From a virus, in the IMG/VR virus record IMGVR_UViG_3300044716_000122, positions 31,046-95,045 of that record: a stretch of 64,000 bases of DNA; one strand, written 5' to 3'. Shown here piece by piece: positions 12,001 to 53,383 of this stretch. A program made the translations under genes and the position numbers. Below the pieces are notes generated by a model. It saw only the letters and a list, made by a program, of their open reading frames with translations. It ran no database searches and had not been told where the DNA came from. Position 1 is the stretch's first letter; every line of letters starts with the position of its first letter.

Positions 12001-12165
12001 TTGATCTATCTTATATTGAGTATAAGCACTAGGACCAGAAATTGCATTAATAGTATTTATTTCCTGTTCGTTACGTAATAGATCAGAATGTATTTGTTCA
12101 GAAGTTTTACCTGTTTTTGCAAGGTGTATCTTATCAATCTCGTTTCTTAGAGGATTAAAGGGCAT
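1..12165 (-). CDS. Giant virion protein, partial at left edge (zincin and RNA-polymerase-like DxDxD motif)
   Basis: The frame is open from an ATG at 12165 to the window edge without a stop, giving at least 4055 residues; the C-terminus is missing. The N-terminal third is rich in charged helices. Around residue 1886 there is a zincin motif HEAWH (6496-6510), followed by an acidic helix (EEKLAEDFRAY), the arrangement seen in metallopeptidase domains of phage polyvalent proteins. Around residue 3264 the segment KSGSDYDIDKLF (2362-2376 codes DYDID) resembles the metal-binding DxDGD loop of two-barrel RNA polymerases, including the virion polymerase of crAss-like phages, but has Ile in place of Gly. 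By position, downstream of the cargo-like genes and last in the block, it matches the giant RNA-polymerase-bearing proteins injected by crAss-like phages. That it is an active polymerase is inference; it could instead be a polyvalent protein without polymerase activity. Confidence 0.85.
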   Translation of the reverse strand, partial: MPFNPLRNEIDKIHLAKTGKTSEQIHSDLLRNEQEINTINAISGPSAYTQYKIDQDKQIESGVSSILTSDLSLDKAKQSVEGQSFLKQAGDLAFGDLTAKMVDADAETKKNINSAASIFKKTLTEGTIEESQKALGELRDKYNKIANSTLSFVDKESLRKSYSDMVEQVNGINRSKRASKNFDAYLSENTLQDREKFLSTFDATNKRLSFALKSKQTKNEDIINQLADLESNRVGSRLYNPEDLAAYKASYFSTDQDLNAGMEMQYNYAIKNAADNKIYDYEKQISDIDNKIKDTYNQEQKNLLAIQKTSLNQELSYVKKLSEKLKPLTVEDTYLKSFYPEEYSRKKAKQKQEVFKNERLAEGDQGSWAETLSRNVGYYRSNVAKQLSGIHSLLDDPSGAYRLRSKADYIAPPTFFVGKDLNKNNKIDDSEITRDIHDNKVTFSQVSWTDKKGNTTWNFWSPAEQILPISMDVLNTVFLSKGIGMGARTAGFGWARVAGAAGLSEANTATFLKSVAPRISTMGTVTATTFPRFYAEERSNFKDGSTAFRVAGLRAIVEGLTESITPDVKLFDGGIAYGALDDVFAKLGKLDPTALSNLTRRRDILLGLVPKNSLSKFNAALLMAPTATRRLVSGATQEAFEEVAALAGNYLVDKYSTQQNFEVEETNKFNLSSTLDTFIEGFIPSLFISGATNLSSRNAMRQERLSQARWNIANNPEQYKQLIANRVSNQQITKEEGLKKTAAIDNIARRLDSMTELNNVKSLTNLLDDKELQFAHFNNRLFQEDLLNVDTTELSPEQVKSYEDLLANTSNSILSTVKLADKYVGLDETEKKSIISKLFETQANAATNADTNLSTLIGIAEQTRQSLLSVPVNDDRYTFVSEEYKKFQDKIDASIQERLGRFSQTLDTNPQNLTRLELQLAAHTFYPAVDRMNAIDAQYTLENSPLIQPTEPGPNAPELIQNILDELSTRQILNEGEFQFEATRNLQNPETKALQEKLLAIAELSPEELESGELEEGVHDHLTSSQRFDLAQQLELHKILKEQNPDELTALENQLNTIIYNDYGKAVLGLDANNTRAKILEMNKAAMEARLNAPIVNNFSPQPQEVPTPTQKPTPGKVLDVDQDVFDEYALLLSDLNDLVSNPDADIDEVKGQVSELIKNALRNLDNLENLNQVRSALLGLYPDDAQSIEDTFAKASEGIVDVSGLTFVTGKRKEFVQGVIAKLVSQTQVSQTATPEDIVNVPTTDEVIEEAPELITDSVIESDNYESAQETKAKEDKEFTIKGERGLHIATITTNKENQTVQDPAALLIDNIVTVYSEDTRANKVTDLDLRIQSVMGIYEFIFDAPKVERLKAFKEKSSLTEEEKTELVSLLTVNGVPIHNQPFMEYVKENPSKIGSGISSVFVNSDGELVRFTKLGKPSKAKTSLISVPVLPNKNVSPEMASVRKQATEGKIIVSSINGVVSGYGWGAQDARPLAKAVGENIYVHTDPISRTLTGAQKNYVLNPGSVHIVKEGARNPYTGVSIPTNGNTVQTLINAFNNGTLPQTLSESIRTDAAIFLDYMSQQVNSTFVKTKEGGAKSGMRFFKKANLYLTATSGNKIVVEYPVEGKDKKKYIKPSKNQQEDLLKLGESSYKLVSARLVEQNAPYTALVVKESGEVVTKNYNTYSDFVKSPEFGATFIREENRTLSFSPDYRVIEPNVSDVVDATNDNLPVQPAATQPIDAKAGIEKRRQEELSREENVELLYPLILEEFPTREQKERLAKNEQDQKTRQEKRDEINFRYDLEIAALEQPVAPTTSKIDRLRSTLNNLNTGEGPVKFNRNKTLRNNITKKQNEAAKNWVANHPIFKNTPFIFDNTISHPEAYAVWSKAGIFLFEGANYAEAYHEAWHEFSQLYLTPEQKAALYAEARSIYGDLSFVELEEKLAEDFRAYALSEGKVLPVSIAEAKESKSIFKQIWDFISNLLSDKKTVDHYFSRLYRGNLTQFKRKEANQYFIQLFSGKYVYEDEAGNITSLSYKDSKAFLDDLDSIYVYLANNMFANQNATLINVLSSPVAANKTYSYLAKSLLDDHDSLVEQYNKNNDESLLPTIENLRKILEDFNNVTQFHKTNSTLFSDNIRKQLVSEQIVSIEQANVEFATFEASVNEMSQKQIASQTLINALKTLPRYENGEIVLHPVYSVPRLSDFNINWNILQRRLSGSNSYEDLYSRLQELKEEYPQFQQFISYLPSPTESIDKRSSLNFKNEFYKIFSMPYIEGYTTEITRDEEGNIKETKIFQAQSLDAINLRSKFDTDFSLNPSAYSKRNNTTGTFYLDTDKYFATFPGVPTAPKDEEDFAEYNLSLLEMLKPLGFNLSPNAEELFVKENADVQERLVKLIYNKLKSLSQTQAYIMEPLSDLSSDHVNEEDVKVAGESGNVSSVIQYEVEANPQYVNDMRYNAVNKQIWSINQHTFMSKTLNVLNDGNLYPTLDEVYAELPHLNPQNNPNAKSSFVLSYLFNEGGKRRKDKYQGIEVPRKVELGNLLGIKDIEGEKTIDSNESQKHYSDIIGLTKAGIEEINRLSGKSTTRGLVFDRKLRDYLGLLPANNQADPFILSGADQVPYDLFIKRIVPLIEAEVQVTAKGSNKFKIDAYDTDGSPKLTYFHKIFTPEQRTALFSAFKSPASNMSLDKIFESINGNKDIYTRFGQYINSQANKSKIILGETYNLPDSELMKYHFFSAIGRIEQHKLFFGHPYYYKNVKDIEKRLSAWNAFGSYAIIDPQNLEYLESGQSGLSVNSGRDALHTYAQQNNIKVNPNRANIDQISYIVLKDEAVKSTTASKSKSYGENKDAYTNDKSSAKQDAAAFCTIDFFRKFYSISTGVTPEMMEEFKRQDDIYKKYLELQTAPDYAEDTVREELEALLNKKSTYKFTIKKLQYSGHNKIESGESVPVFHKYSMKPILPSEMVDNPELASILQKLHTSSADYAVFSSGTKISETIAPVSLFDGKGKVKSQAVPTGVVDLKYLKEQVLIENKEDFNSIFSTQFRKLVYKDATTESELAGYQEYKSIIENLTNFDKLNFLEQLQDKEKLVEFLIKEISKKNAAESTKDLLQLKTDNTLMYTLDSMIDRTIMESAIVASVKNQIIRQKIPGAQRVQYPVSLIRPSRKLKYYDIVDGKISKAEAIISFSKGYYPLLNLLSPIDNQPIGELDANGIPVNPYTALTRLNEALKDAQFRNTYASQLSMVAIRIPGQGYNTMENFEIVEFLPEESGEIILVPDEMVIKSGSDYDIDKLFCYDPSINNDGSMLIDRVSTPEDLIVRKKELLADLKETRELKRQYTEEKKELLDELGNILTTNGFDASSRLGNLYQELKSLKGVSEGELMDAGVTEGDLETLRKKFSGELVPEKQQKSAETIDKIRRIKNVLRTTSEKELSNSLADLNEWVGDLVKEEKSLLQDLKNLRNGYANALLLNISNRLSQPEIFEALITPNTIETIDKAVKEFGTKSDSTTASLTNLISPIYQLYVFSLNTYKTALGTDAKNNVFHSLLQKTTFYREDEKSVRRYLLESNRTTDGYIDFSRVNNVDGTRISKMSGETISAHVDIEKNDGIASIGLNNLITPVVNYVLMAGTRFNDIVNLINKPSVIDGKKFRSSILDYSKGKSLEDILETILERVPENSLEATLINNSRNKYGAISRNKFISNVYSQMYAKTTQETAREELFNKEEPLFDVRRLAVFLELEDQTRDLATISLAVDYDTFSPQNFESFRSASLELIPYLKEGGEKSTIFNRQGLLDVIGNTVVSPFQVQQGVLDKFVEVFPISANPKITNRILRQFAVAKETNRKLDYDRYSRVFKNDLLYALFLNNVPQAGMFEQFLDKKNPGNIGSLYTNLKSRLIQRGITAENDIFGLVSINSDINSTFVRTGLKQTELEFSVDIYKEEFEKGFNWSHPSLDPTNLSDAQLIADMQGFFKAFAYAGILGTQLNKKFDSYLPLIPESIYTFPMSSVITNFISSYEAQLEEGTSEFMDSFTARFKENHPELYGSKNIPVTLNYYKDYNLSRKNIIDLTTISQSELTLKD

Positions 12166-39094: not shown

Positions 39095-41104
39095 TTAGTA
39101 TCGGAAGGGGGATGAGGTTGTACGGAACAAAGAGTTCCCTTTCTTTTCTCGGAAGTAAGCCTGGATTCTATTATCATCGTTTGAGTTAGAAATAATAACC
39201 TGAGTAGTAAGAGTCTTAGCCATAGCTAGAGTTAATCCAAATGAAATAACTCGGTCAACGTTTAACTTAGGGGTAAACTTAATTAACTCCTTAATCAAAA
39301 GAGGATCTAACATTCTGGTTACTCCTAGTCTTTCTTTTACAATAGCTCCATCTTCGTCTCTCTCTACTTCTATTACCTCGGTTATGTATTCGATAATAAG
39401 AGACATCAAATAGTTTTTAATGTCTTTAGTCATGTGAATACCATAGTCACGATTAACTGTAGAGTTAGGGTGAATGTCATTTAGGAACTTAGGCGTCTTC
39501 TCTAGAACCTTGGGAGATTCATTCTTGTCTACACAGTGCTGGATAAAACCATAGTCCATGTTTTCACAAAGAGTTTTAGCATTGTAATACTTAAGAAGCA
39601 TCTTAGTTATCTCATACCAAGTCTCAATCTTCTTAGGACGACCTGTGTAACAAGCTACAACTATATTCTGCCAACCTTCTCCGCTTAGATTGTGGACCCT
39701 CTTATAAATATAAGTAGAACCCAAAGAAGTTGAGTAGTGTGCCTGCGACTGTTTGTATGGATCCGTTCCTGCTGTATAAAGTCCATAGGGGGCTTCTGAC
39801 AGAGGATATTCCCAAATCTGAACACAACCCTCAATGGGATCTGTGGACTTAACAGGGAAGTTAATAACGGGCTTCTTGTCTGTAAACTTGTGTCTTATCT
39901 TTCCATCAGAGTTAATGTAGAGTTCTACATTGTCTGCTTGGATTTCTTGAGCACTTAATTTCTGTAGTTGTTCTTGAAGTAAGTCTACAGGAAATATGTT
40001 CTGAGATAGTTCTAAGAAACACTCTTCGTGATTCAAAGGATAGTACATTACTTCTTTTAAGTAAGCTTCTAAACCGTTTGATTTCTTAGTCTGTTCTCTA
40101 GACTTTAAGATAAGTTCTTTTCCTTTCTCTTCGTCTGCTACCCAAATCTTAATTATGTCTAACTCAGAAGGATCTTCTTTACCTAAGTAAAGTCCTAGGG
40201 GAGTTTCTTGCTTTGGAACTTTCAAAGAACGTGTACCTGGAATAAAGAGTCCATAAGACTTTCCTGTTTCATTAGACTCTACAGGAAGAAAGTTATAAGC
40301 TTCAGGATTGTTAAATAACTCTTCTAGGTCTGCTGCCTTAGTCATATCTCCAGAAGTTCCAATTACAAAAGGAGAACAACGCCAGCCATAAGGACTGTCA
40401 AAACAAGGAGTAGTTGCCGCTAAGCAAGAAAGGATCTTTCCTTTTCCTCCTTCTTCTAAAAGAAACGAAGATAGAGTAAGACCTGCCGCTGCTTCCGTAT
40501 TGTTGCCTTCATCAAAGTTTCTTACGTGGAACTTAGACCACTCATTACGAGAGTTAGTTCTCTTATCTTTAAATCCTAAAGTTACCTGTCTCTTCCAGTC
40601 ATCCTCAATACGAGGGAACCTAAAGTAGTCAGGAAGATTTCTAATACCTAAGTCTACGTAGTCTGTGATTACTTTTAAGTCAGGTTGGTTAAGCGCAGAT
40701 ATCAAGTTGTCAGAACCTTTCTGTGTAATGGCTTTGTGAGCCATATAAGAAGAAGTTAGAACTGACTTAGAGATACGTCTAGATCCTACCATCACAACTC
40801 CTTTCTTTCCGTCTATATGATTCTCTGCTTTATGGATAGTTTCATCTACTGCTAAGTAGGTATCCCAAAGCTGAGGTTTGTCTAGCTTTCTAATTTGACG
40901 CTTACCTACCATTGTATCTACATAAATAGACCAGTAGTTTAAATGCCAATAAATAAAAGGCGAGAAATAAAATCCATTAATAGTTACACCTTCTGTAATC
41001 TTTTTGTCTTCGTTCTCCCAAAATGCATCATACTCCTCTGAGCCAATCTCAGGGAAGGACTTAACATTAATAAAGAATTCTGGACTTTCTAGATTAGCGT
41101 GCAT
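39095..41104 (-). CDS. terL: Terminase large subunit
   Basis: This gene encodes 669 residues. The N-terminal ATPase has a Walker A-like loop VGSRRISKS (residues 106-114), lacking the classic GKT/S spacing but keeping K/S, and a Walker B SFLLEEGGK (213-221) with a catalytic Glu. The C-terminal nuclease (RNase H fold) has AGTDPY with Asp448 and a second acidic site near CENMDYGF (about 510-520). Two-metal cleavage of concatemeric DNA and ATP-driven packaging are known for this family. It lies between a candidate small subunit upstream and the portal downstream. Confidence 0.88.
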   Translation of the reverse strand: MHANLESPEFFINVKSFPEIGSEEYDAFWENEDKKITEGVTINGFYFSPFIYWHLNYWSIYVDTMVGKRQIRKLDKPQLWDTYLAVDETIHKAENHIDGKKGVVMVGSRRISKSVLTSSYMAHKAITQKGSDNLISALNQPDLKVITDYVDLGIRNLPDYFRFPRIEDDWKRQVTLGFKDKRTNSRNEWSKFHVRNFDEGNNTEAAAGLTLSSFLLEEGGKGKILSCLAATTPCFDSPYGWRCSPFVIGTSGDMTKAADLEELFNNPEAYNFLPVESNETGKSYGLFIPGTRSLKVPKQETPLGLYLGKEDPSELDIIKIWVADEEKGKELILKSREQTKKSNGLEAYLKEVMYYPLNHEECFLELSQNIFPVDLLQEQLQKLSAQEIQADNVELYINSDGKIRHKFTDKKPVINFPVKSTDPIEGCVQIWEYPLSEAPYGLYTAGTDPYKQSQAHYSTSLGSTYIYKRVHNLSGEGWQNIVVACYTGRPKKIETWYEITKMLLKYYNAKTLCENMDYGFIQHCVDKNESPKVLEKTPKFLNDIHPNSTVNRDYGIHMTKDIKNYLMSLIIEYITEVIEVERDEDGAIVKERLGVTRMLDPLLIKELIKFTPKLNVDRVISFGLTLAMAKTLTTQVIISNSNDDNRIQAYFREKKGNSLFRTTSSPFRY

Positions 41105-43704: not shown

Positions 43705-44151
43705 CTATTTTAAACTCTCAAACCCACTCTTAAACGACTTCTCTAAAGCTTTAGAATAAGCTTTTCTGTTATGAGGAATACCTTCTACAGAAACAAACAT
43801 AGCATTAACGTAAACTACTTTACTAGCTTCTCCTTGAAGAAGAATTCCATTTACGTTAATTTCTGTACTTACAATGTATTCTCGTTTAAGAAACTGTAAG
43901 CCTACAATATTTACAAGTTGTTCTGGCATTGCAATGGATTTGATTTTTCCTGAAATAGGACTGCCCTCATTACATAATTGGTACTTGGCTGAAGCAATCT
44001 CTTCTAGAGTAGTTTGTGCTCCAAAGATTATAGGTCTTCCTCCTATCTCTGTTACAGTAGCAATTGAGGTTACAGTGTCAATCTTATAGCATTGAGCACT
44101 CAGAGAAGTCATCATAGTGACTAAAGCGGAAAGTATAAATAGTTTTTTCAT
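43705..44151 (-). CDS. Small secreted protein
   Basis: This gene encodes 148 residues with a clear N-terminal signal peptide (MKKLFILSALVTMMTSLSAQ, cleavage after SLSA). The mature part is beta-rich with two Cys (C22 and CNEG) and ends in a basic helix (KALEKSFKSGFESLK). It is the last gene of the envelope operon and lies 10 bases after the lectin gene. No family was recognised. It would be exported to the periplasm or beyond. Confidence 0.65.
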   Translation of the reverse strand: MKKLFILSALVTMMTSLSAQCYKIDTVTSIATVTEIGGRPIIFGAQTTLEEIASAKYQLCNEGSPISGKIKSIAMPEQLVNIVGLQFLKREYIVSTEINVNGILLQGEASKVVYVNAMFVSVEGIPHNRKAYSKALEKSFKSGFESLK

Positions 44152-44161
44152 AATTTAATAG

Positions 44162-45145
44162 TTAGTAGGTTACTGCTCCAGCATAACCAGGAGCTATTAT
44201 GTAGAGATTTAAAGTTCCTCCACTAGTTAAAGTAGAAGTTGTATGAGTGGAAACTCCAGGATAAGTTGCACGTACATTTGTAGTAGCCGCTTTAATTGCA
44301 TTGTATTGAGAAGTAGTAAAGATTCTTACGTCAGGAGCTGTTCTCCACTTAGAAAACCTTCCTGCTTTTCTTGCAGCCACATAATACTTGTCTGCTACTG
44401 AAAGTAATCCATCTTCATTTACATCATACATGTGAAAAGACAAACCATTTCTTGTAGTTTTTCCTAGTATAGTATTAGATACTCCTTGGATATCTGAGGT
44501 TGCATAAGCCTGGACTCTAGTAGGGGCAGCTATCTCTATGTAGTACTCCTTAGAAGGATCATAAGTCTCAGAAATAGAATAGTAACCCGAAGAGTTAGTA
44601 TAAATAGTTTTATAAAGGGTCCAAGAAGAAGTTGTTACTATGTAATCAAATTCTATAACATAAGCCAGACTACTACTATTGTTTAAATCATTCCACTTAC
44701 CGCTACCTACAAATTGAATGTAGTCTTCATTACCTGAGTTATTGGGTTCTCCTGAGTTCCAGTTTGTGTAAGAAAAAGTTTCTCCTGTTACCCATTTCCA
44801 AGTCCCCTCTGTTACTTCATCTGTTAGTCCTATCCAACCAGAAGGCCAAAGATTAAATAAGAAACTATTTTCACCTGAACTTGTAACTGTTACTAAATAA
44901 CCACCCATAGCAACACAGTTAGCTTTAGCTGTAGTCCAGTTAGCTGTTCCTGTAGAACGATAGTAAGAGTGCCCATTATAATTACTCTGAGAAGTAAATC
45001 CTGTTATAGTAGAATTTGTCCTTCTATATAGCTTTACAGCCACGTTGTTTGCACCAGATCCATTTGCATTATACAAGTATCCAGAATAAGTGAATTGTGC
45101 ACTCAGTGCGTTCACAAAGAAGAATAGAACAATAACCCACCTCAT
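44162..45145 (-). CDS. Secreted C-type lectin with dockerin-like module
   Basis: This gene encodes 327 residues with a signal peptide (residues 1-16, ending LSAQ). A short beta region is followed by a C-type lectin domain (about 59-168) with WIGL (104-107), EPN (133-135) and WND (151-153), the calcium and mannose-type sugar-binding residues; the usual disulfide cysteines are mostly absent (C77 only). After a second beta region comes a dockerin-like calcium loop DVNEDGLLSVAD (241-252) followed by ARKAGRFSKW, shared with the T9SS protein at 50144-52045. The start overlaps the previous stop by 4 bases. Sugar binding at the cell surface is inferred. Confidence 0.75.
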   Translation of the reverse strand: MRWVIVLFFFVNALSAQFTYSGYLYNANGSGANNVAVKLYRRTNSTITGFTSQSNYNGHSYYRSTGTANWTTAKANCVAMGGYLVTVTSSGENSFLFNLWPSGWIGLTDEVTEGTWKWVTGETFSYTNWNSGEPNNSGNEDYIQFVGSGKWNDLNNSSSLAYVIEFDYIVTTSSWTLYKTIYTNSSGYYSISETYDPSKEYYIEIAAPTRVQAYATSDIQGVSNTILGKTTRNGLSFHMYDVNEDGLLSVADKYYVAARKAGRFSKWRTAPDVRIFTTSQYNAIKAATTNVRATYPGVSTHTTSTLTSGGTLNLYIIAPGYAGAVTY

Positions 45146-46605
45146 ATCAATAACTTTGCTCCCATTAAGATTTGAAAGTTGAGAATGTCCTGACCTGCTA
45201 CATAAGTTCCTCCTCCTGTAATACCTAGACCAAATGTCTTAGTCATCTTCCAGGTAAGGTTTACAAAAGGAATTACAATAGGCTTAGCTTTAAATAAAGA
45301 CTCTGTATAATACTTAGAGTAGGGAGAATAGATACCTGCCATAATAATTGTAGCATCTATATGTTTAGTAAGTTTTCCCTTATACATAAATCCCCCTATA
45401 ACAATAGTAGAGATCATTTGTTCTCCGTAGAGTTTACCATAAGTTCCAGCAGCTCCGTAGAGTGCTGTAAAGTTCTTGACTGAATTTACTCTAACAAACA
45501 GAGCTGTGTTAGAGAAGGCTTTAGGCATCAGACTCATTCCATCTGATACTACACTAATGTGTTTATGCCCTTTTTTGTTTGCTCCTATCCATGAACGGAC
45601 ACAGGAGATATTACCGATCTTAGCATTAAGCATATAATCGGCTGAAAACCCAAGAGAAGAAGTACCATCTCCTTTTACTCTTGTAAAGGAAGCAGTACCT
45701 CTTGCATCTTGTGCTCCATCAGACTTAGTCTGAATACCAACTAAATCACCCGTTACTATGATCGCAGGCTTAGCAACTTCGGCTTTAGCTTTATTGGCTG
45801 CTTTCACAGTACCACCAGACTGAGACTTTTGTTGCTCAGTCTTAGTTTCTTCTACTTTTTGTTCTGAGGGTTTCTCGGTTTGTACTTCCGTTTTTTCTTC
45901 GGTTTTACCACTGGAGGAGCCACTACTTCCTGAGCCACTTCCACTTCCACTGCTACCACTGGAGCTTCCGCTACTACTTCCACTACTTCCACTACTGGAG
46001 TTGTCACCACTGCTTCCTGCATTACCGTCTCCGCTGCTTCCACTACTGGATTGGTTACTGCCTGAGGTTTCTGAGGAGTTACCTCCACCGTTTGATTGTC
46101 CGTTTTCTCCTGACGAGCTGCCAGAATTACCAGAACCACTAGAGCTACTGCTAGTACGATTCCGAGAGTTAGTTCGATTGTCATTGCTATTGGTTTTATT
46201 GTTAGTTCCTACGTTAGTTCCTGAAGAAGTACTCCCACCTACATCTACGTTAACACTTCCTACATTTGATATGGCCCCTAGATTCATAACATTACTTACA
46301 ATGTTTAAGGTCGCATTTGTAGTCGTTGTTGTTGTAGTAGTTACTCCAACTCCTTGACAGGGTGATGTATTTTTATACTTCAAATATACACTATTTATCC
46401 AATTATCAAATGTTCCATCTGTTAATTCTGTATAAGAGAAAGTTTGTACCTGTCCATAGTAAGCAATTACTATAGGACTAGACATATTTGCGTTAATAAA
46501 TTTTAACTCTTGTGTACACGGATCTGTGTAAGAATACATAAAGCTCTGGCCTTTGAGGGACAGAGCTATCATGAATAGGATTAATATCTTAGTTTTTAAA
46601 TACAC
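45142..46605 (-). CDS. Outer-membrane-barrel-like protein with Ser/Gly linker
   Basis: This gene encodes 487 residues with a signal peptide (residues 1-19). An N-terminal domain (20-90) contains two Cys and precedes a Thr run (VTTTTTTTT). Residues about 125-235 are Ser/Gly-rich, followed by a Glu/Lys/Gln-rich stretch (EEKTEVQTEKPSEQKVEE). Residues about 290-487 have alternating hydrophobic strands typical of outer-membrane beta-barrels (LGFSADYMLNAKIG, FGLGITGGGTYVAG, QILMGAKLLI at the end). It overlaps the CsgG-like gene start region by 17 bases and probably works with that lipoprotein at the outer membrane. The barrel is inferred from strand pattern. Confidence 0.65.
   Translation of the reverse strand: MYLKTKILILFMIALSLKGQSFMYSYTDPCTQELKFINANMSSPIVIAYYGQVQTFSYTELTDGTFDNWINSVYLKYKNTSPCQGVGVTTTTTTTTNATLNIVSNVMNLGAISNVGSVNVDVGGSTSSGTNVGTNNKTNSNDNRTNSRNRTSSSSSGSGNSGSSSGENGQSNGGGNSSETSGSNQSSSGSSGDGNAGSSGDNSSSGSSGSSSGSSSGSSGSGSGSGSSGSSSGKTEEKTEVQTEKPSEQKVEETKTEQQKSQSGGTVKAANKAKAEVAKPAIIVTGDLVGIQTKSDGAQDARGTASFTRVKGDGTSSLGFSADYMLNAKIGNISCVRSWIGANKKGHKHISVVSDGMSLMPKAFSNTALFVRVNSVKNFTALYGAAGTYGKLYGEQMISTIVIGGFMYKGKLTKHIDATIIMAGIYSPYSKYYTESLFKAKPIVIPFVNLTWKMTKTFGLGITGGGTYVAGQDILNFQILMGAKLLI
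45852..46184 (-). CDS. Overlapping ORF: membrane-anchored Val/Glu/Pro-rich protein with basic tail (candidate)
   Basis: A 110-residue frame, shifted by one base, lies fully inside the Ser/Gly linker of the barrel gene. It starts MTIELTLGIVLAVALVVLVI, a single membrane segment, continues with a Val/Glu/Pro/Ala-rich arm (TPVVEVVEVVAEAPVVAVEV) and ends in a strongly basic tail (PPVVKPKKKRKYKPRNPQ). This TonB-arm-like plan looks protein-like, but frame-shifted Ser/Gly codons (AGT, GGT) automatically read as Val and Ala, so the hydrophobic and repetitive parts may be an artefact. No strong ribosome binding site is visible. Confidence 0.35.
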   Translation of the reverse strand: MTIELTLGIVLAVALVVLVILAARQEKTDNQTVEVTPQKPQAVTNPVVEAAETVMQEAVVTTPVVEVVEVVAEAPVVAVEVEVAQEVVAPPVVKPKKKRKYKPRNPQNKK

Positions 46606-47278
46606 CTGCCTTAATGAGATTTTGAATCACATTAGTACAAGCAGTTTCTAAAGACTTTCTGGTAGCTTTACCGACAGTACTTTGAGAAAACTTCATATCG
46701 TCTAGAGACTTTAAGAAAGATTCGCCTACCTTTTGTGATTCGCCTTCTCCAGATCCAATGTATATCTGACCTGTCTTTGCGTCAACAAAACGCACTTGTA
46801 AGCGAATAAAGGTAGTAACAGCAACCTTCGACTTAAGACCATCAACTTGCTCATCTTCATCAACAGCAAAATCGGCCACAGTAACATAAACAAAGTAGTG
46901 AGCAGGTTTAATCTTACCTTTTCCATCAATGGGTTCATCAAATACACCTTTCTTTGAAGCTTTAAACTGAGTTACCATCCTCTCCTTGATCTCACTCTTC
47001 TCCTCAGTAAATATAAAACGATTCGTTTCATCTAAATAATCTAATACGGATTCAGCAAAACCTAAGCCTACGTTCTTCTCCTGTAATGCAGGATACAAAC
47101 TTAAGACTTTTGTCATGTCTACACTAACTACTTGAACTGTTTTTTTAATAGAATCTGTGTAACCAGAAACACTTGAGATGTCCTTAGATACTACAGGCTC
47201 ATCATCTGTGGTTGTTTTCATACTACCACAAGCAAACAATACAACAGTCAACAATAGACTACCAAGGATCTTCTTCAT
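46589..47278 (-). CDS. CsgG-like outer-membrane lipoprotein
   Basis: The product has 229 residues from the ATG at 47278 (MKKILGSLLLTVVLFACGS); an upstream ATG at 47362 would add a Leu-run from overlapping sequence and is rejected. It has a lipobox LFAC with Cys17. The mature part has the alternating helix/strand layout of CsgG-family lipoproteins: VLDYLDETNRFIFTEE, AHYFVYVTVADFAV, VRFVDAKTGQIYIGSGEGE and a C-terminal helix (ETACTNVIQNLIKAG). CsgG forms secretion pores for curli; other members are lipoproteins of unknown role. It overlaps the previous gene by 20 bases and precedes the barrel gene. Confidence 0.65.
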   Translation of the reverse strand: MKKILGSLLLTVVLFACGSMKTTTDDEPVVSKDISSVSGYTDSIKKTVQVVSVDMTKVLSLYPALQEKNVGLGFAESVLDYLDETNRFIFTEEKSEIKERMVTQFKASKKGVFDEPIDGKGKIKPAHYFVYVTVADFAVDEDEQVDGLKSKVAVTTFIRLQVRFVDAKTGQIYIGSGEGESQKVGESFLKSLDDMKFSQSTVGKATRKSLETACTNVIQNLIKAGVFKN

Positions 47279-47576
47279 CTGGTTGAGGTTTAGTAGCAGG
47301 AGCAGGAGTAGCAGCAGGCTTTGAAACCTCTTTCTCTCTGATGATGGTAGTAGTACCTCCACCTGATTGCTTTTGCTGGTTAGTGTTGTTGTTCTCTAAG
47401 TTAACGTTAATAACAGGCTGAGCAGATTGTTCTGTCTTAGCATCTTCTTTAGGTTCTTCGCCTCCTCCTAGATGAGTAGCAAACCAAGCACCACCTGCTG
47501 TAACAGCAGTAGTAATTGCTCCAATGATAGTTTTTTTGATAGCGGACATACCGCTTTCTTCTTTTTCTTCTGACAT
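47259..47576 (-). CDS. Small membrane protein with Pro-rich tail
   Basis: This gene encodes 105 residues: a charged N-terminus (MSEEKEESGMSAIKKT), one membrane segment (IIGAITTAVTAGGAWFATHLGG), then Asn/Gln-rich and Pro/Ala-rich stretches (NLENNNTNQQKQ, AATPAPATKPQPDEED). It overlaps the CsgG-like gene and lies 4 bases from the coiled-coil membrane gene. It could be an outer spanin-like or adaptor protein, but lacks a lipobox. Confidence 0.6.
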   Translation of the reverse strand: MSEEKEESGMSAIKKTIIGAITTAVTAGGAWFATHLGGGEEPKEDAKTEQSAQPVINVNLENNNTNQQKQSGGGTTTIIREKEVSKPAATPAPATKPQPDEEDPW

Positions 47577-47580
47577 GATA

Positions 47581-47841
47581 TTAATTTTTATTTATAAGTT
47601 CTTCTACGTATTTATCTCTTTGCTCCATTAGGTACTGATTACGCTCAATCATTCTAGCTCTTTCATCATCAGTAAGTTTAAGGATTAAAGTTTCTTTATC
47701 AGTTATCATCTTTTTATACTCTTCTAACTGAATTTTAAAGTTCATGTTCTGGTAGTACAGGATACCCACTAATAATATAATAGTGAAAGATTGCTCTTTC
47801 AGCTTCTCAAAAAATGTTTTACCCATAGATCCTTCTTCCAT
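47581..47841 (-). CDS. Membrane-anchored coiled-coil protein (i-spanin-like layout)
   Basis: This gene encodes 86 residues: one N-terminal membrane segment (FTIILLVGILYYQNM) followed by a long charged coiled coil (QLEEYKKMITDKETLILKLTDDERARMIERN region). An ATG at 47826 is an alternative start with GAAGGA just before it. The layout is that of inner-membrane spanins (Rz type), but it sits next to DUF2589 and CsgG-like genes rather than the endolysin, so the function stays open. Confidence 0.55.
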   Translation of the reverse strand: MEEGSMGKTFFEKLKEQSFTIILLVGILYYQNMNFKIQLEEYKKMITDKETLILKLTDDERARMIERNQYLMEQRDKYVEELINKN

Positions 47842-47842
47842 A

Positions 47843-48313
47843 TTAGTTTGTTTGTCCTAATGCTTGTATATAAGAGTCAATGATTCTAGACACGGCTTCA
47901 GGCTTTTCATCGGCTTTAAATTTAACTTTAATCTTAGCCATCCCTGAAGAACTTGGATTGATTCCTGAGTCTACTTCAATTCCTTTTATATTGTGTTCGT
48001 ACCCCTTCTTCTTAAATAGTCCCAGTAGAGACTTCTTAAGACTGGATACTTCCTTCTCCTCATCCCCAAAAATTAATCTAGCTTCAAACTCTATATCTAA
48101 CTCATCTAGTCCAATAGAAGAGTGATCTGCTAGAATATAAAGAGGCACTAGTAACTCCTTGTCCCCAATCATAAAGTTTGTAACCTTTGGAGTACCATCC
48201 TCATTAAAGTAATTTCGTAGAGCATTAATGTGTTGTCTTTCACTAATACTCTGAGAAACCATGGCGGCCTCTAATAGACCGCCTACAAGTTCCTCAATGT
48301 TTAATCTTGCCAT
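47843..48313 (-). CDS. DUF2589-related protein, short paralogue
   Basis: This gene encodes 156 residues. The N-terminus (IEELVGGLLEAAMVSQSISERQHINAL) resembles the LPIEDLI...A....A opening of DUF2589, followed by a beta-rich part (LLVPLYILADHSSIGLDELDIEFEARL) matching the PLLAIVPIPNL...I.F..E pattern, and a C-terminal half with KIKVKFKADEKPEAVSRIIDSYIQ. It lies directly downstream of the clear DUF2589 gene, so the pair probably acts together. The function of the family is unknown. Confidence 0.65.
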   Translation of the reverse strand: MARLNIEELVGGLLEAAMVSQSISERQHINALRNYFNEDGTPKVTNFMIGDKELLVPLYILADHSSIGLDELDIEFEARLIFGDEEKEVSSLKKSLLGLFKKKGYEHNIKGIEVDSGINPSSSGMAKIKVKFKADEKPEAVSRIIDSYIQALGQTN

Positions 48314-48339
48314 ACAGCAAAGTTAGTTAAATTTTCTGA

Positions 48340-48930
48340 TTAAGATTCTTTACTCAACGGAACCAAAGAAGGCTCTAACATTGCAGTAAGGAAGTCAGAT
48401 AATTTAAGCATGCCTTCTGTTGGAGGCAACTGTTCTGCATGTACTTTTACTTCGTACTTAGCTGAGTTATCAGTCTGCCTAGTGTTCTCTTTGTGAGCAC
48501 TTACGCTACCAGATACCTTAGCATTGAAACTCATACCCCACCATTTGCCACCTGCAGTTACTTCATAAGCTGTCTCAGAATCGTTAGATTCTTTAGACAT
48601 GTCTGAAGTTTTTACTTCCATAGTGAAATTGATGTCAGCAGAAGTAATTGCCAAAGAAGGCAACGGAACCAAAGGAAGCATAGGAACTTTACTGTAAACA
48701 GTCTTAAGTTCTTGAACTCCTGTGTCTCCGTCTGTGAATACACGTTGCATCTCTACATCAAGTGAGCGTGCAACATTAGCATCACCTTTTTTCTCAAAAG
48801 CTACCTCAGAGATGTATCTCCAAGTTACTTCATTTAATTTAGCTTGTCCTTTTGCCATTCCGACAATAGGGCTTACAATAAGGTCTTCGATAGGAAGTCC
48901 TCTGAACTGATCTGCAATTGAATCTGCCAT
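48340..48930 (-). CDS. DUF2589 family protein
   Basis: This gene encodes 196 residues. It follows the DUF2589 pattern closely: LPIEDLIVSPIVGMAKGQAKL (residues 11-31), VPMLPLVPLPSLAITSADINFTMEVK (given as key strands, about 83-108), and a C-terminal AHKENTRQTDNSAKYEV segment (about 152-168). It begins after a short gap from the zinc-ribbon gene and is followed by a shorter paralogue. The biochemical role of DUF2589 is not known to me. It has no signal peptide or membrane span. Confidence 0.82.
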   Translation of the reverse strand: MADSIADQFRGLPIEDLIVSPIVGMAKGQAKLNEVTWRYISEVAFEKKGDANVARSLDVEMQRVFTDGDTGVQELKTVYSKVPMLPLVPLPSLAITSADINFTMEVKTSDMSKESNDSETAYEVTAGGKWWGMSFNAKVSGSVSAHKENTRQTDNSAKYEVKVHAEQLPPTEGMLKLSDFLTAMLEPSLVPLSKES

Positions 48931-49163: not shown

Positions 49164-49766
49164 TTAAGGATTACTTGTATTAGATAAAGACTTTTTACAA
49201 TTTGTATTATGCCATCTTGAGATTGCAGCAGGTTGTGCCATAAAGCCACAAACCTCACATGATACTTTTGATTTTGGGTATTTATAATTTGCAGTATTTT
49301 CTCTAGGCTTACGCATCTTCTCTATAGCTTCAGGAGTATGTTTAATTCCTCGTATTGTATTTGCAAGTTTATCTTTTGATTCTTGCGTCCATACTCTACC
49401 TGGTTTTCCTTTTTTATCTAAACTGATTTGGAATTGTCTTATCTTCTCTCGTGTTTCTTGTTTTACAATTACACCAGTACCACCATCACCTCCATCTGTT
49501 TGATTTGCTAGAAAACCTTCAGACTTATCTTTTCTCCCGTATAATTTAATGAGTTCCTTTTCCTTTTCACAAGCCTCTTCCCAACTTAAGTCATTCATAA
49601 TAATATCTACTCTATAGTTTGTTTTGGCTATAATATTATGCCAATACTCATTACGATGCTCTTTTGCTTTAGACCTCTTAAATTTTCCTTCATTATCATC
49701 TACGCCTACTCCAATATAAAATGGAATATTCGTATCTAATCTAATATGTCTATACACGTAAGCCAT
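49164..49766 (-). CDS. GIY-YIG homing endonuclease with NUMOD3-like and zinc motifs
   Basis: This gene encodes 200 residues. The nuclease domain starts with YVYRHI (3-8) and FYIGVG (16-21), the GIY-YIG pair, with catalytic-type Arg/Glu in the following helices (KAKEHRNEYW, WEEACEKEKELIKLYGR). Residues about 140-155 hold a NUMOD3-like SxKHTPEAIEKM element (IKHTPEAIEKMRKPR). The C-terminus has a CxxC...HxxxC zinc-type motif (CEVCGF, RWHNTNC). It is a free-standing mobile gene inserted in the operon between the holin-like and zinc-ribbon genes; no intron is visible. Confidence 0.85.
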   Translation of the reverse strand: MAYVYRHIRLDTNIPFYIGVGVDDNEGKFKRSKAKEHRNEYWHNIIAKTNYRVDIIMNDLSWEEACEKEKELIKLYGRKDKSEGFLANQTDGGDGGTGVIVKQETREKIRQFQISLDKKGKPGRVWTQESKDKLANTIRGIKHTPEAIEKMRKPRENTANYKYPKSKVSCEVCGFMAQPAAISRWHNTNCKKSLSNTSNP

Positions 49767-49778
49767 AAGTAAATATAC

Positions 49779-50147
49779 TTAATTTTCTTCTCTTTTACTA
49801 TATTTAGCAGCTATGATTTCTGGGGTATCGTCTTCCTCATCTACTTTAGAGATTAACATTTTATCTCTATCTTCAGAATTGAACCAGTAGTCAACTACTT
49901 TGTTTAAGTTACCTACAAAGGCACCCAACAAAATAAGTAACATTTCTTTCCAATCTTCTCCAATAGATGCTCCTAAAAATACTGCTGCATTAATACCAAC
50001 AATAATTAAAGTAAACAAACCTAATACAATTGCTGTAATTCTCCAACGATTAGCTTGCATTTGTTGTAGCATATAGTAGAACCTGTTCTTAGGATCTACT
50101 GCTACTGGCTCTGCTTGGGTAAAACCAAGTGTTTTTTTAATGTTCAT
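49779..50147 (-). CDS. Holin-like membrane protein
   Basis: This gene encodes 122 residues with a soluble N-terminus and two membrane segments (ITAIVLGLFTLIIVGINAAVFLG and LLILLGAFVGNLNKVVDYWF), then a charged cytoplasmic tail (DRDKMLISKVDEEDDTPE). The second segment ending in VVDYWFNS is typical of holins I know from Bacteroidota phages. It overlaps the T9SS-protein gene by 4 bases, and a second holin-like gene lies 3 kb upstream. Confidence 0.6.
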   Translation of the reverse strand: MNIKKTLGFTQAEPVAVDPKNRFYYMLQQMQANRWRITAIVLGLFTLIIVGINAAVFLGASIGEDWKEMLLILLGAFVGNLNKVVDYWFNSEDRDKMLISKVDEEDDTPEIIAAKYSKREEN

Positions 50148-52045
50148 TTTTGTACAATTATTTTTGAATGTAATACTTCTGTCTCAGTTGTTACAGAAAG
50201 GATATAGAGGCCATTAGAAAGACGATCTAGGTTTGCACTATACTTGTACTTACCTGCGGGCATACGTTGTTTTAAAATAGTCTGTATGCGTCTTCCTACC
50301 TCATCAGAGATAGCCATGTCTACGTTAGAGTCTTCTTTAATCTTGAATTGAATCTGAATATCTCCTTCTGTAGGATTAGGAAATACTATAATAGAGTTTA
50401 AATCATTAAGCGAAACAGTTCCTTTGTTAACTCTACGTACTTCAATAATACCCATAGCAGGAGTGATGTTCATATCCTTAGAGTTTTTGTCTCCTACGTA
50501 TTTAGCACCTGTCCATAAAGCTGCACTTGCCCAACTATCTTGAGGCTTCTTAGCAATGAACTGAACATTGAAAGCCTGTTCTCCGTCATTAAGCATGTTC
50601 TCGTTAGTTAAGTCAGCACCTCCCCAAGATACTATACCATTAGAAGGGTTCATATAAGTAGTCCACTTCATCATCTTCTCAGAGTTCTCAATACCTTTAA
50701 ACTCTAAGTAAGCTGTGTCGTACTTAAGATCTAACTGTAATGCACCTAAGTTCTTTCCGTTAGTTAAAACTTTAACAGGAATGTTAACTAGGTTTCCTTC
50801 TTCTACACTTACTTTGGGCATGTTTACCTCAATAGTTTCTGCAGGGAAATCATAACTTACAGTTTCGTCAATAATGTAACGCTTTGCATTAGCAGAGTTA
50901 ACAATCTTAATAGGAGTTAAACGAGCCATCTTAAATCCTGTAGAGTTTGCATCTCCTTTAACAGCTACATAGTAAGTAATAGAATCTCTTCCATCTACAG
51001 AGTAAGTAAAGTTATTTACAGTAGAGTAAGTAGCAGTTAAGTTAGAAGCAGATCCGTTGATTGAATTATATTCAGCAACTGTGAAGAACATTACATCTTT
51101 CTTTGAGTTAGGCCAAGCAGAGAATCTACCTGCCAAACGTCCGTATACAGAGTATACATCAGCAATAGAAATATCACCAGTAGTACCGTTTACATCCATT
51201 GTGTAGTAATCAAATCCTGCGGGAGTGTATTGACCTAAGATAGCTTGGTTAACCTTCTGTGCATCTGCAGTAGAGAATACGTTACCTGGAGTCATTGTAT
51301 CACCTTTAACTGCAATACGTACATCCCAATAAGTAGTATCTAAGAACTTACGGAATACAGTAACCCCGTTAGAGTTAGTTTTCTGTGCAGCAACTTCAGT
51401 CCAGGTAGAAGAACCTTTAGCTCTTTTCTCTAAGCTAACTGTTAAGTTCTTAGCATCTGTACCTGTAACGTTCTTAAACTTAGTAGCAAATCTTAATACC
51501 TTTTGGTTGAAACGTCCACCATAAGAGTAAACTACCAAAGTAGTGTCGTTACCCCAGTTAGTAGCAGCTCTATTAGAGAATGACTTAACACCTGCAACTT
51601 TTAAAGTCTTGATAGAATCTAAACTGTTCCATACAGACTCAGCAGCGTGAGTGAAAGTCAAATCAAATGTAGCTCCGTTAGAATAGTTGTAAGTAGAACT
51701 AGTACCTGTGTAAGCCAAGGTAACTGTTAAGAATCCTTGTGTGTTACTATCTACGTACTGAAGATATTGATCTGTAGTAGAAATCTTAAGAGAAGGAACG
51801 ACTGCAGTAAAAGCTGTTTTGTCGTAGAACACACGGAATTGCATACCTGTGATCTTCTCTGAAGTAGAAGTGTTATAGAAATGTAGAGGAGCAACTGTCT
51901 GACCTACAGTGTTAGTAGCTACTTGATAGCCTGAGTCAATGACTACCCAGTGACCTGTACCTGGAGAGGTAGCAGAACTTTGTGCTGATACATTGCCAAC
52001 CAACAATGTAAGCACCCCGATGAAGACTTTAATTAATTTGTTCAT
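50144..52045 (-). CDS. Exported cohesin/dockerin-like protein with T9SS C-terminal sorting domain
   Basis: This gene encodes 633 residues with a signal peptide (residues 1-21). The order is a cohesin-like beta domain (about 35-172), a beta domain (175-250), a dockerin-like calcium loop region (DVNGTTGDISIAD, 284-296) followed by YGRLAGRFSAW, a second cohesin-like domain (about 405-535), and a C-terminal domain (551-633) with VFPNPTEGDIQIQF, DEVGRRIQ and DRLSNGLYILSVTT...KIIVQK, the signature of type A T9SS sorting domains. The protein would pass the inner membrane by Sec and be displayed or released by the host T9SS. The start overlaps the upstream stop as ATGA. Such a domain is very unusual on a phage. 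Confidence 0.78.
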   Translation of the reverse strand: MNKLIKVFIGVLTLLVGNVSAQSSATSPGTGHWVVIDSGYQVATNTVGQTVAPLHFYNTSTSEKITGMQFRVFYDKTAFTAVVPSLKISTTDQYLQYVDSNTQGFLTVTLAYTGTSSTYNYSNGATFDLTFTHAAESVWNSLDSIKTLKVAGVKSFSNRAATNWGNDTTLVVYSYGGRFNQKVLRFATKFKNVTGTDAKNLTVSLEKRAKGSSTWTEVAAQKTNSNGVTVFRKFLDTTYWDVRIAVKGDTMTPGNVFSTADAQKVNQAILGQYTPAGFDYYTMDVNGTTGDISIADVYSVYGRLAGRFSAWPNSKKDVMFFTVAEYNSINGSASNLTATYSTVNNFTYSVDGRDSITYYVAVKGDANSTGFKMARLTPIKIVNSANAKRYIIDETVSYDFPAETIEVNMPKVSVEEGNLVNIPVKVLTNGKNLGALQLDLKYDTAYLEFKGIENSEKMMKWTTYMNPSNGIVSWGGADLTNENMLNDGEQAFNVQFIAKKPQDSWASAALWTGAKYVGDKNSKDMNITPAMGIIEVRRVNKGTVSLNDLNSIIVFPNPTEGDIQIQFKIKEDSNVDMAISDEVGRRIQTILKQRMPAGKYKYSANLDRLSNGLYILSVTTETEVLHSKIIVQK

Positions 52046-52512
52046 TTTGTTTTTATTTTACTTAGTTTGTGTATTTGTTCTACAGCGTTTGCCTGTAACC
52101 AAGGCTCTGGGGTTGGTAGTTTATTTATAAAACTTAGTTCGTATATGTAACACTTAAGTTCTTCTTCATCTAGACTCTGTACTACTGGATGTAGCAAGTA
52201 GCTTAGGTGAAGACTTTCATGTACAAGAACGCAAGCTAAGTTAGCAATTGAGTTCATCTTTGCATCTCCTACGGCTATGTAAATAGTGTTTCCGTCTTGA
52301 GATATGTTGTTAGAAGAATAGGGACTAATCCAAAAGTCTACTATGTCGCAGACATCTATCAATCTAGTGTATATGTTGACATCTGTTTGAGCAATTAATG
52401 CTAAGGCTGAGTCTACCTTTAAATCCCAACCATCCCCTGCCTTCATCACTTTAATCTGAGAAGAACAGGGGATAGAGAGAATCAGAAAAAGACTTACTAG
52501 AAGTCCTTTCAT
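52042..52512 (-). CDS. Exported HExxH metalloprotease-like protein
   Basis: This gene encodes 156 residues. A signal peptide (MKGLLVSLFLILSIPCSS) is present; the Cys16 context (LSIPC) is an imperfect lipobox. HESLH (98-102) is a zincin motif within an LVHESLHLSYLLHP helix, preceded by IYIAVGDAKMNSIANL. It lies between the endolysin candidate and the T9SS protein with tight overlaps. It may cut envelope proteins during lysis or process the secreted proteins; neither is shown. Confidence 0.65.
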   Translation of the reverse strand: MKGLLVSLFLILSIPCSSQIKVMKAGDGWDLKVDSALALIAQTDVNIYTRLIDVCDIVDFWISPYSSNNISQDGNTIYIAVGDAKMNSIANLACVLVHESLHLSYLLHPVVQSLDEEELKCYIYELSFINKLPTPEPWLQANAVEQIHKLSKIKTK

Positions 52513-53100
52513 TTATTTAATATCTTTAGACTCGATAAGAGTGTACGTAAAAGAATTACCACCCAATGTTGCAGCCTTCTTACAGATAGCCAAGAATGCA
52601 TCAAAGTCGGCAGACTTCTTAAACACTTGGCAACCTTCTGACCAGTTCTCAACGTAGGTAGAGTCTGCACCAGCTTTATGAATGTTAATACCGAAGATCC
52701 CTTCTTGTATCTTGGACTCATCATAGTTCATGTCTTTGTTAGCATCACGGTAAACTTTAACGTTAGCCTTTTGCTTAAGGGCTTCGTATTTACCTTGGTG
52801 TAATGCAATGTGGTGTGAACCTGAGTATTGACCAGGTACTAAACGTGCAACACCTGCAGCGTTATGGAATTCTTTAACTCCCTTAGTTCCTGGATCTGTA
52901 GTAGCAGGCCAGATTTTAAATTTCCACTCTCCACCTTCTTTGTAAGAAAGAGTCAAGTGATCGTCAAATACGTTAGTTACTTTAGTACCAGTAGCAGAGT
53001 TTCTAACACCAATGATATTGATATTAAAGTCTCCGTTTTCAAAGTACTTGTAACCTTTAGCTTTCATAGCCGCTTCGATTTGTTCTCTTGTGTAGCTCAT
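52513..53100 (-). CDS. Endolysin candidate, YkuD-like (L,D-transpeptidase-type) fold
   Basis: This gene encodes 195 residues without signal peptide. The C-terminal half has INIHKAG (His141) and WSEGCQVF (Ser154, Cys157), matching the HxxG...SxGC catalytic pattern of YkuD-type L,D-transpeptidases/peptidases. The N-terminal half is beta-rich (VFDDHLTLSYKEGGEWKFKIWPATTDPG, key strands only). It lies directly after the holin-like gene, which supports a role in peptidoglycan cleavage. Whether it transfers or hydrolyses cannot be told. Confidence 0.7.
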   Translation of the reverse strand: MSYTREQIEAAMKAKGYKYFENGDFNINIIGVRNSATGTKVTNVFDDHLTLSYKEGGEWKFKIWPATTDPGTKGVKEFHNAAGVARLVPGQYSGSHHIALHQGKYEALKQKANVKVYRDANKDMNYDESKIQEGIFGINIHKAGADSTYVENWSEGCQVFKKSADFDAFLAICKKAATLGGNSFTYTLIESKDIK

Positions 53101-53134: not shown

Positions 53135-53383
53135 TTAGTCTTCGCTAGGTGCTTCTGGCTTCTTCATGATTTTCTCAACAGAAGTCAAACCTAAACAACC
53201 AAAAGCCAACAAAGCAACTGCATCCACCAAAGGAACAGAAGGAGCAAAGTGAGCTTCAGTAAAAGAGTTAGCGTACAATGTAGCGCATAGTGTAATTGTG
53301 CATGCTAATCCGCACAATCGTTTCATGGAGACAGAACCCTTCTCATCTTTGAAGAGTCCGCCAATAAAGTTTAATAGTTTCAT
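53135..53383 (-). CDS. Holin-like protein
   Basis: This gene encodes 82 residues. A short amphipathic start (MKLLNFIGGLFKDEKGS) is followed by two membrane segments (MKRLCGLACTITLCATLYANS and VDAVALLAFGCLGLTSVEKIM) and a charged end. This is a class of small holin typical of Bacteroidota phages, and it lies directly before the endolysin candidate. It is the first gene after the promoter at 53557-53586. Confidence 0.7.
   Translation of the reverse strand: MKLLNFIGGLFKDEKGSVSMKRLCGLACTITLCATLYANSFTEAHFAPSVPLVDAVALLAFGCLGLTSVEKIMKKPEAPSED

Follow-up and report, generated by a model that had tools for sequence, protein, structure and literature searches.

What does a run of genes for exported proteins do in the genome of a phage? 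We studied a stretch of 64,000 nucleotides (the window) from a 95-kb virus record, IMGVR_UViG_3300044716_000122. Its terminase has relatives in crAss-like phages. The initial annotation described four consecutive genes at positions 43,705 to 47,278 as a tightly overlapping envelope gene set. All four open reading frames are present there, on the minus strand. The lectin and barrel genes overlap by 4 nt and the barrel and CsgG-like genes by 17 nt, but the gene for the small secreted protein does not overlap: it lies 10 nt from the lectin gene. The set is real but incomplete, as it missed two equally obligate members: a cohesin protein with a sorting tail for the type IX secretion system (T9SS), and TM105, which has one transmembrane (TM) helix. 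The module and its companions are:

53,135–53,383, minus strand: TM82, a small holin-like membrane protein; frequent companion (64/101 loci), with a holin role suggested by its size and position
52,513–53,100, minus strand: endolysin-like enzyme (phrog_33083 endolysin, E = 3.1e-13); companion in part of the set (45/101 loci)
52,042–52,512, minus strand: secreted protein with an HExxH-like motif (weak match to mod_HExxH, E = 0.0078); frequent companion (76/101 loci)
50,144–52,045, minus strand: cohesin protein with a T9SS type A sorting tail; core; 633 amino acids (aa), with a signal peptide, cohesin-like, dockerin-like, X, and cohesin domains, and a C-terminal T9SS signal
49,779–50,147, minus strand: TM122, a small membrane protein; frequent companion (69/101 loci), in some phages between the CsgG-like and barrel genes
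47,581–48,930, minus strand: a small TM protein and two DUF2589 proteins (E = 1.1e-13 and 1.2e-30); accessory insertion before TM105
47,259–47,576, minus strand: TM105; core; one N-terminal TM helix, an Asn/Gln/Pro-rich tail, and an invariant C-terminal Trp
46,589–47,278, minus strand: CsgG-related lipoprotein; core; 229 aa from the ATG, without TM hairpins of CsgG length
45,142–46,605, minus strand: predicted outer-membrane barrel; core; 487 aa, GTG start; N-terminal domain with a Cys pair, a disordered linker of ~165 aa, and a 12-stranded barrel
44,162–45,145, minus strand: lectin slot; 327 aa, with a C-type lectin head on a constant dockerin-like + X tail
43,705–44,151, minus strand: small secreted protein; core; 148 aa, a distant short paralogue of the CsgG-like protein

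To examine how strictly these genes are linked, we used the CsgG-like gene to find 101 viral loci with at least 4.5 kb of flanking sequence on each side. The five fixed genes (encoding the cohesin protein, TM105, the CsgG-like protein, the barrel, and the small protein) are all present in 101/101 of these loci. A profile for the lectin family matches 92% of the 101 loci, and in others, a related slot protein with a different head takes its place. To avoid anchor bias, we gathered a second set of loci via TM105. In 46/46 of these loci with flanks, all five core genes are present. Some of the contigs counted here, and in our other locus counts, are near-duplicates from the same populations.

To compare gene orders, we ran profiles of the window's genes over the open reading frames of all of the viral loci that we fetched. 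In the window's clade, the order is cohesin/T9SS protein, TM122 (if present), TM105, CsgG-like protein, barrel, lectin, and small secreted protein. In phages similar to Flavobacterium phage immuto, the core of cohesin, TM105, CsgG-like protein, barrel, and small protein is kept, and the lectin slot is at either end. The initial annotation proposed conservation of gene order in relatives as a check; the core order is mostly kept across the viral loci.

The module also contains insertions. DUF2589 proteins are found in 13/216 loci, and the window encodes two adjacent ones at 47,843–48,930. At 49,164–49,766, inside the window's module, we recognized a GIY-YIG-like open reading frame by eye. Members of this family are found at different module junctions in relatives (in 7 loci, between the CsgG-like and barrel genes), which suggests a mobile homing endonuclease.

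Single-sequence scans against Pfam, PHROG, and NCBIfam gave no confident name for the CsgG-like, barrel, or small proteins. In particular, the window's CsgG-like protein had no match in Pfam by itself, and 7 of 35 members of its family matched the CsgG family (PF03783; best E = 1.9e-4). Similarly, a single-sequence comparison to E. coli CsgG with hhalign was not significant, so a family alignment was needed to see the relationship. When the CsgG-like family was aligned by profile to ten CsgG proteins from cells, the match ran colinearly over 151 columns. With signal peptides removed, hhalign of the two families scored 34.2, whereas 60 column shuffles reached at most 22.7. Profile searches of the PDB with the CsgG-like family gave no match. 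The AlphaFold2 (AF2) model of the CsgG-like protein is poor (mean pLDDT of 49.8). The top Foldseek and VIA matches of this low-confidence model include CsgG chains (for 4uv2, Z = 8.1 and rmsd = 5.5 over 137 aligned positions); because the model is weak, we consider these structural matches to be supporting evidence only. Family-level comparison of sequences supports the view that the CsgG-like protein is a distant member of the CsgG/HfaB family (PF03783). The window's protein also has a lipobox (LFAC-GS). The lipobox is found throughout the window's clade and is missing from part of the immuto-like clade. Thus, the lipobox protein with a CsgG-type layout in the initial annotation was correctly recognized, with the CsgG relationship being at the level of the family or profile.

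The initial annotation's suggestion that this protein is an export pore in the outer membrane fared less well. CsgG's own two TM hairpins are about 26 and about 40 aa long. In the CsgG-like family members that we parsed, the equivalent segments are 19–21 aa (24–42% charged) and 22–25 aa. Both are shortened and charged, in place of the two amphipathic TM hairpins that each CsgG subunit contributes. Also, seven phage genomes yielded no match to CsgE, CsgF, or curlin repeats, while the E. coli control was positive. Because of these hairpins and the missing curli components, a CsgG-type export pore is unsupported. Judging from its sequence, the CsgG-like protein probably does not form a pore itself, and a channel is more likely to be formed by the separate barrel.

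The small secreted protein is related to the CsgG-like protein as well. With signal peptides removed, hhalign of these two gave a score of 33.0, versus a shuffled maximum of 22.3, and by this profile comparison we regard the two as distant paralogues. Its direct comparison to CsgG was not significant, and a profile search of the PDB gave only chance-level matches.

The AF2 model of the barrel has 12 antiparallel strands (pLDDT of about 70–87) that follow a small N-terminal domain and a long disordered linker. Its best matches in the PDB are outer-membrane barrels: CymA (Z = 16.6, rmsd = 3.4, 207 aligned positions) and also OmpG. Outer-membrane beta-barrel proteins are expected to begin with a signal peptide and to have an antiparallel barrel at the C-terminus, as here, and this prediction agrees with the barrel-like protein with a long linker in the initial annotation. 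In the N-terminal domain, Cys30 and Cys83 are invariant across 30 sequences.

TM105 is conserved beside the CsgG-like gene in 110 loci. Its tail is Asn/Gln/Pro-rich by eye and ends in tryptophan in 188/188 open reading frames of the profile set, within the context DPW, ESW, DSW, EPW, or SPW (positions 47,259–47,261 in the window). TM105 had PHROG matches to Zot-like and hol-like families (best E = 6e-4), which we set aside as low-complexity matches.

The cohesin protein matches Cohesin in Pfam (PF00963; E = 1.2e-14, 55.1 bits versus a cut-off of 24.1). It ends in a Por_Secre_tail (E = 4.1e-11, 43.4 bits versus a cut-off of 27; TIGR04183, E = 4.1e-10), and this C-terminal match above the cut-off identifies it as a T9SS type A substrate. 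Cohesin and the sorting tail are found together in a single open reading frame in 178/193 loci. Some of the remainder are truncated, and in immuto, the cohesin/T9SS protein is split into two genes.

The window's lectin matches Lectin_C in Pfam (E = 2.7e-16). The initial annotation reported intact EPN and WND motifs, and these are almost invariant: EPN is found in 100/101 and WND in 101/101 of the homologues that we checked. More broadly, the proteins of the lectin slot have a constant N-terminus and a constant dockerin-like + X tail, while the head is exchanged. The heads are C-type lectin, PA14, GEVED, and one unnamed type, most of which are glycan-binding; the counts by class are CTL 77, H064 32, PA14 17, and GEVED 16. 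For instance, one locus (L003) encodes a CsgG-like protein that is 97% identical to the window's, yet the ends of its slot protein, which match, flank another head. On a tree of the CsgG-like proteins from 80 loci, there are at least 19 head changes, including changes between phages with identical CsgG-like proteins. None of the slot heads were found in the flanking tail-fibre open reading frames.

Several relatives have matches to dockerin type I (PF00404) in the tail of the slot protein, with E values of 0.0016–0.048, all below the Pfam cut-off. A D-x-N...D loop is present in 137/177 slot open reading frames (some truncated cohesin open reading frames are among those counted). Because the dockerin scores are below the cut-off, we infer, rather than observe, that the tail of the lectin docks onto the cohesin protein. 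The lectin has no recognized signal for export across the outer membrane, so its export route is a guess.

The module is found in several kinds of phages: crAss-like phages, sheathed phages of ~160 kb (including an isolate, Flavobacterium phage immuto), and sheathed phages of ~300 kb. Both the ~160-kb and the ~300-kb contigs carry tail-sheath genes, which are not present in the crAss-like contigs that we tested. The sheathed phages that we tested yielded no match to the window's terminase. In a collection of annotated phages, the module is found only in the records for immuto, where it lies directly after the genes for DNA replication, with its products labelled as hypothetical, cohesin-domain, and lectin proteins. 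The isolated host of a module-carrying phage is a Flavobacterium.

Three contigs have terminases with 29% identity to that of the window; in these contigs, the CsgG-like protein is 91–93% identical, the barrel 77–83%, the cohesin protein 82–84%, and the endolysin-like enzyme 95–96%. In 166-kb sheathed phages, the identity of the CsgG-like protein is 80–83%. The contrast between CsgG-like proteins at 91–93% identity and terminases at only 29% identity implies that the module has moved between lineages. We also looked for cellular relatives by scanning genomes with only two conserved peptides. This found none: the sole contig returned (L195, from a metagenome-assembled genome of Sphingomonadaceae) shares the layout of the module and appears to be a phage contig that was binned in error. 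That contig has a large fibre-like open reading frame upstream of the module.

We made two other observations about the window. The closest named relative of its terminase (39,095–41,104) is from Leptolyngbya phage Lbo-JY46 (39.8% identity), which is recorded from a cyanobacterium. The other close matches are from Bacteroidota phages or gut crAss-like phages, so the host label of Lbo-JY46 may deserve a check. Also, positions 1–12,165 are an open reading frame of over 4,055 aa on the minus strand that runs off the left edge of the window, with no stops in the standard code.

Given the exported proteins, the T9SS tail, the cohesin and dockerin-like domains, and the exchange of glycan-binding heads, we tentatively propose that a phage-encoded trans-envelope complex and a T9SS-exported cohesin scaffold display glycan-binding heads on the infected cell. 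We put this surface-remodelling role, as read from sequences, at a little below an even bet. The hosts would be Bacteroidota with T9SS. On the inner side of the outer membrane, the CsgG-like lipoprotein would surround the barrel together with its small paralogue, much as PelC is placed on PelB, and TM105 would tie this complex to the inner membrane. The resulting channel would take the lectin-slot protein to the surface. The host's T9SS would export and anchor the cohesin protein, the dockerin-like tail of the lectin would dock onto it, and the displayed heads would bind glycans of the host or of neighbouring cells. Besides the obligate linkage, the several phage backgrounds, and the swappable heads, the conserved sugar site (EPN/WND), the confident barrel, the CsgG-like fold without its own hairpins, the Flavobacterium host of the isolate, and the location of immuto's module after replication genes instead of lysis genes all favour display. 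The sub-cut-off dockerin matches, the lectin's lack of a recognized export signal, the poor model of the CsgG-like protein, the immuto-like members without a lipobox, and the lysis-type neighbours in the window's clade count against it.

Those neighbours make an unorthodox lysis apparatus the main rival. The initial annotation considered the set to be separate from lysis. This holds for immuto, where the core occurs without the endolysin-like and holin-like genes; but in the window's clade, the module lies among lysis-type genes, and the endolysin-like and holin-like genes adjoin it and travel with it (at 84–99% identity in the near relatives that we compared). In a lysis apparatus, TM105 would be an inner-membrane spanin and the CsgG-like protein and barrel its outer-membrane partner, breaking or fusing the outer membrane late in infection with the cohesin and lectin proteins as helpers. 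The overlap between genes for a one-TM, long-tailed protein and an outer-membrane lipoprotein favours this reading. However, the CsgG-like protein is a folded protein of 229 aa rather than a short o-spanin, and some of its relatives lack a lipobox. Also, immuto's annotated endolysin is several kb from the module, and neither T9SS cohesins nor swappable lectin heads have a role in known lysis. We consider lysis to be an unlikely explanation, but one to take seriously.

Another idea is that the module exports a cargo that coats virions or debris: the lectin heads would be released, or carried on the progeny at exit, and would aid binding to new hosts or surfaces. The swapping of heads does resemble the exchange of receptor-binding domains. 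But the core proteins have signal peptides or N-terminal TM helices, unlike ordinary virion proteins, and we found none of the heads in the flanking tail-fibre genes; we consider virion coating to be improbable. Least probable of all, and by our estimate very unlikely, is curli-like secretion, with the CsgG-like protein as a pore for an amyloid or an adhesin. It would account for the profile-level homology to CsgG, but not for the short, charged hairpins, the lack of curli partners in the seven genomes, or the barrel that is always present.

If the heads are indeed displayed on the infected cell, the likeliest benefit would be to mask receptors, as exchangeable heads fit masking best. This might exclude superinfecting phages or spare the progeny from adsorbing to infected cells. 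Masking is the last and weaker step of our proposal, and we consider it a doubtful one.

How does the module compare to known systems? It shares related sequence and fold layout with the CsgG curli secretion channel (PF03783), and in the window's clade the CsgG-like protein is also an outer-membrane lipoprotein; unlike CsgG, it lacks long hairpins and detectable CsgE, CsgF, or curlin, and it is paired with a separate barrel. In the PelBC complex for exopolysaccharide export, lipoproteins form a ring that docks onto a beta-barrel (PMC12141448). A lipoprotein ring with a separate outer-membrane barrel is the arrangement that we propose, by analogy, for the module, and PelC (5t0z) is among the Foldseek matches of the CsgG-like model (E = 0.05). 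However, the module has no long TPR scaffold before its barrel, is encoded by phages, and is linked to a T9SS cohesin and lectins. The amyloid exporter FapF has a 12-stranded barrel after an N-terminal region, as does the module, and FapF is among the Foldseek matches; this likeness is one of structure, and we saw no amyloid gene. Cellulosomes also combine cohesins with dockerins, but the module has glycan-binding heads instead of cellulases, a T9SS tail as its anchor, dockerin matches below the cut-off, and a phage location. Finally, phage T5 encodes a superinfection-exclusion lipoprotein, Llp. The module's products would likewise be exported and act at the host's outer membrane, but as a six-gene complex with exchangeable lectin heads rather than as one small lipoprotein.

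All of the component families are known, but the combination is apparently undescribed, as the initial annotation had supposed: it turned up neither in the literature that we searched (which covered few subscription papers) nor in named phages other than immuto. The strict linkage, the spread across short-tailed and contractile-tailed phages, and the rapid exchange of heads imply a strong and general benefit to phages of aquatic Bacteroidota. In the fullest version of our proposal, this is a mobile module of unrelated Bacteroidota phages in which an envelope-spanning machine and the host's T9SS display interchangeable lectins that exclude competitors, and the head swapping reflects an arms race over receptors; we think that this is unlikely to be right in every part. 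The isolated carrier, Flavobacterium phage immuto, makes the module testable. If our proposal is true, phages use the T9SS of their hosts and cohesin-dockerin chemistry to rebuild the surface of the infected cell.
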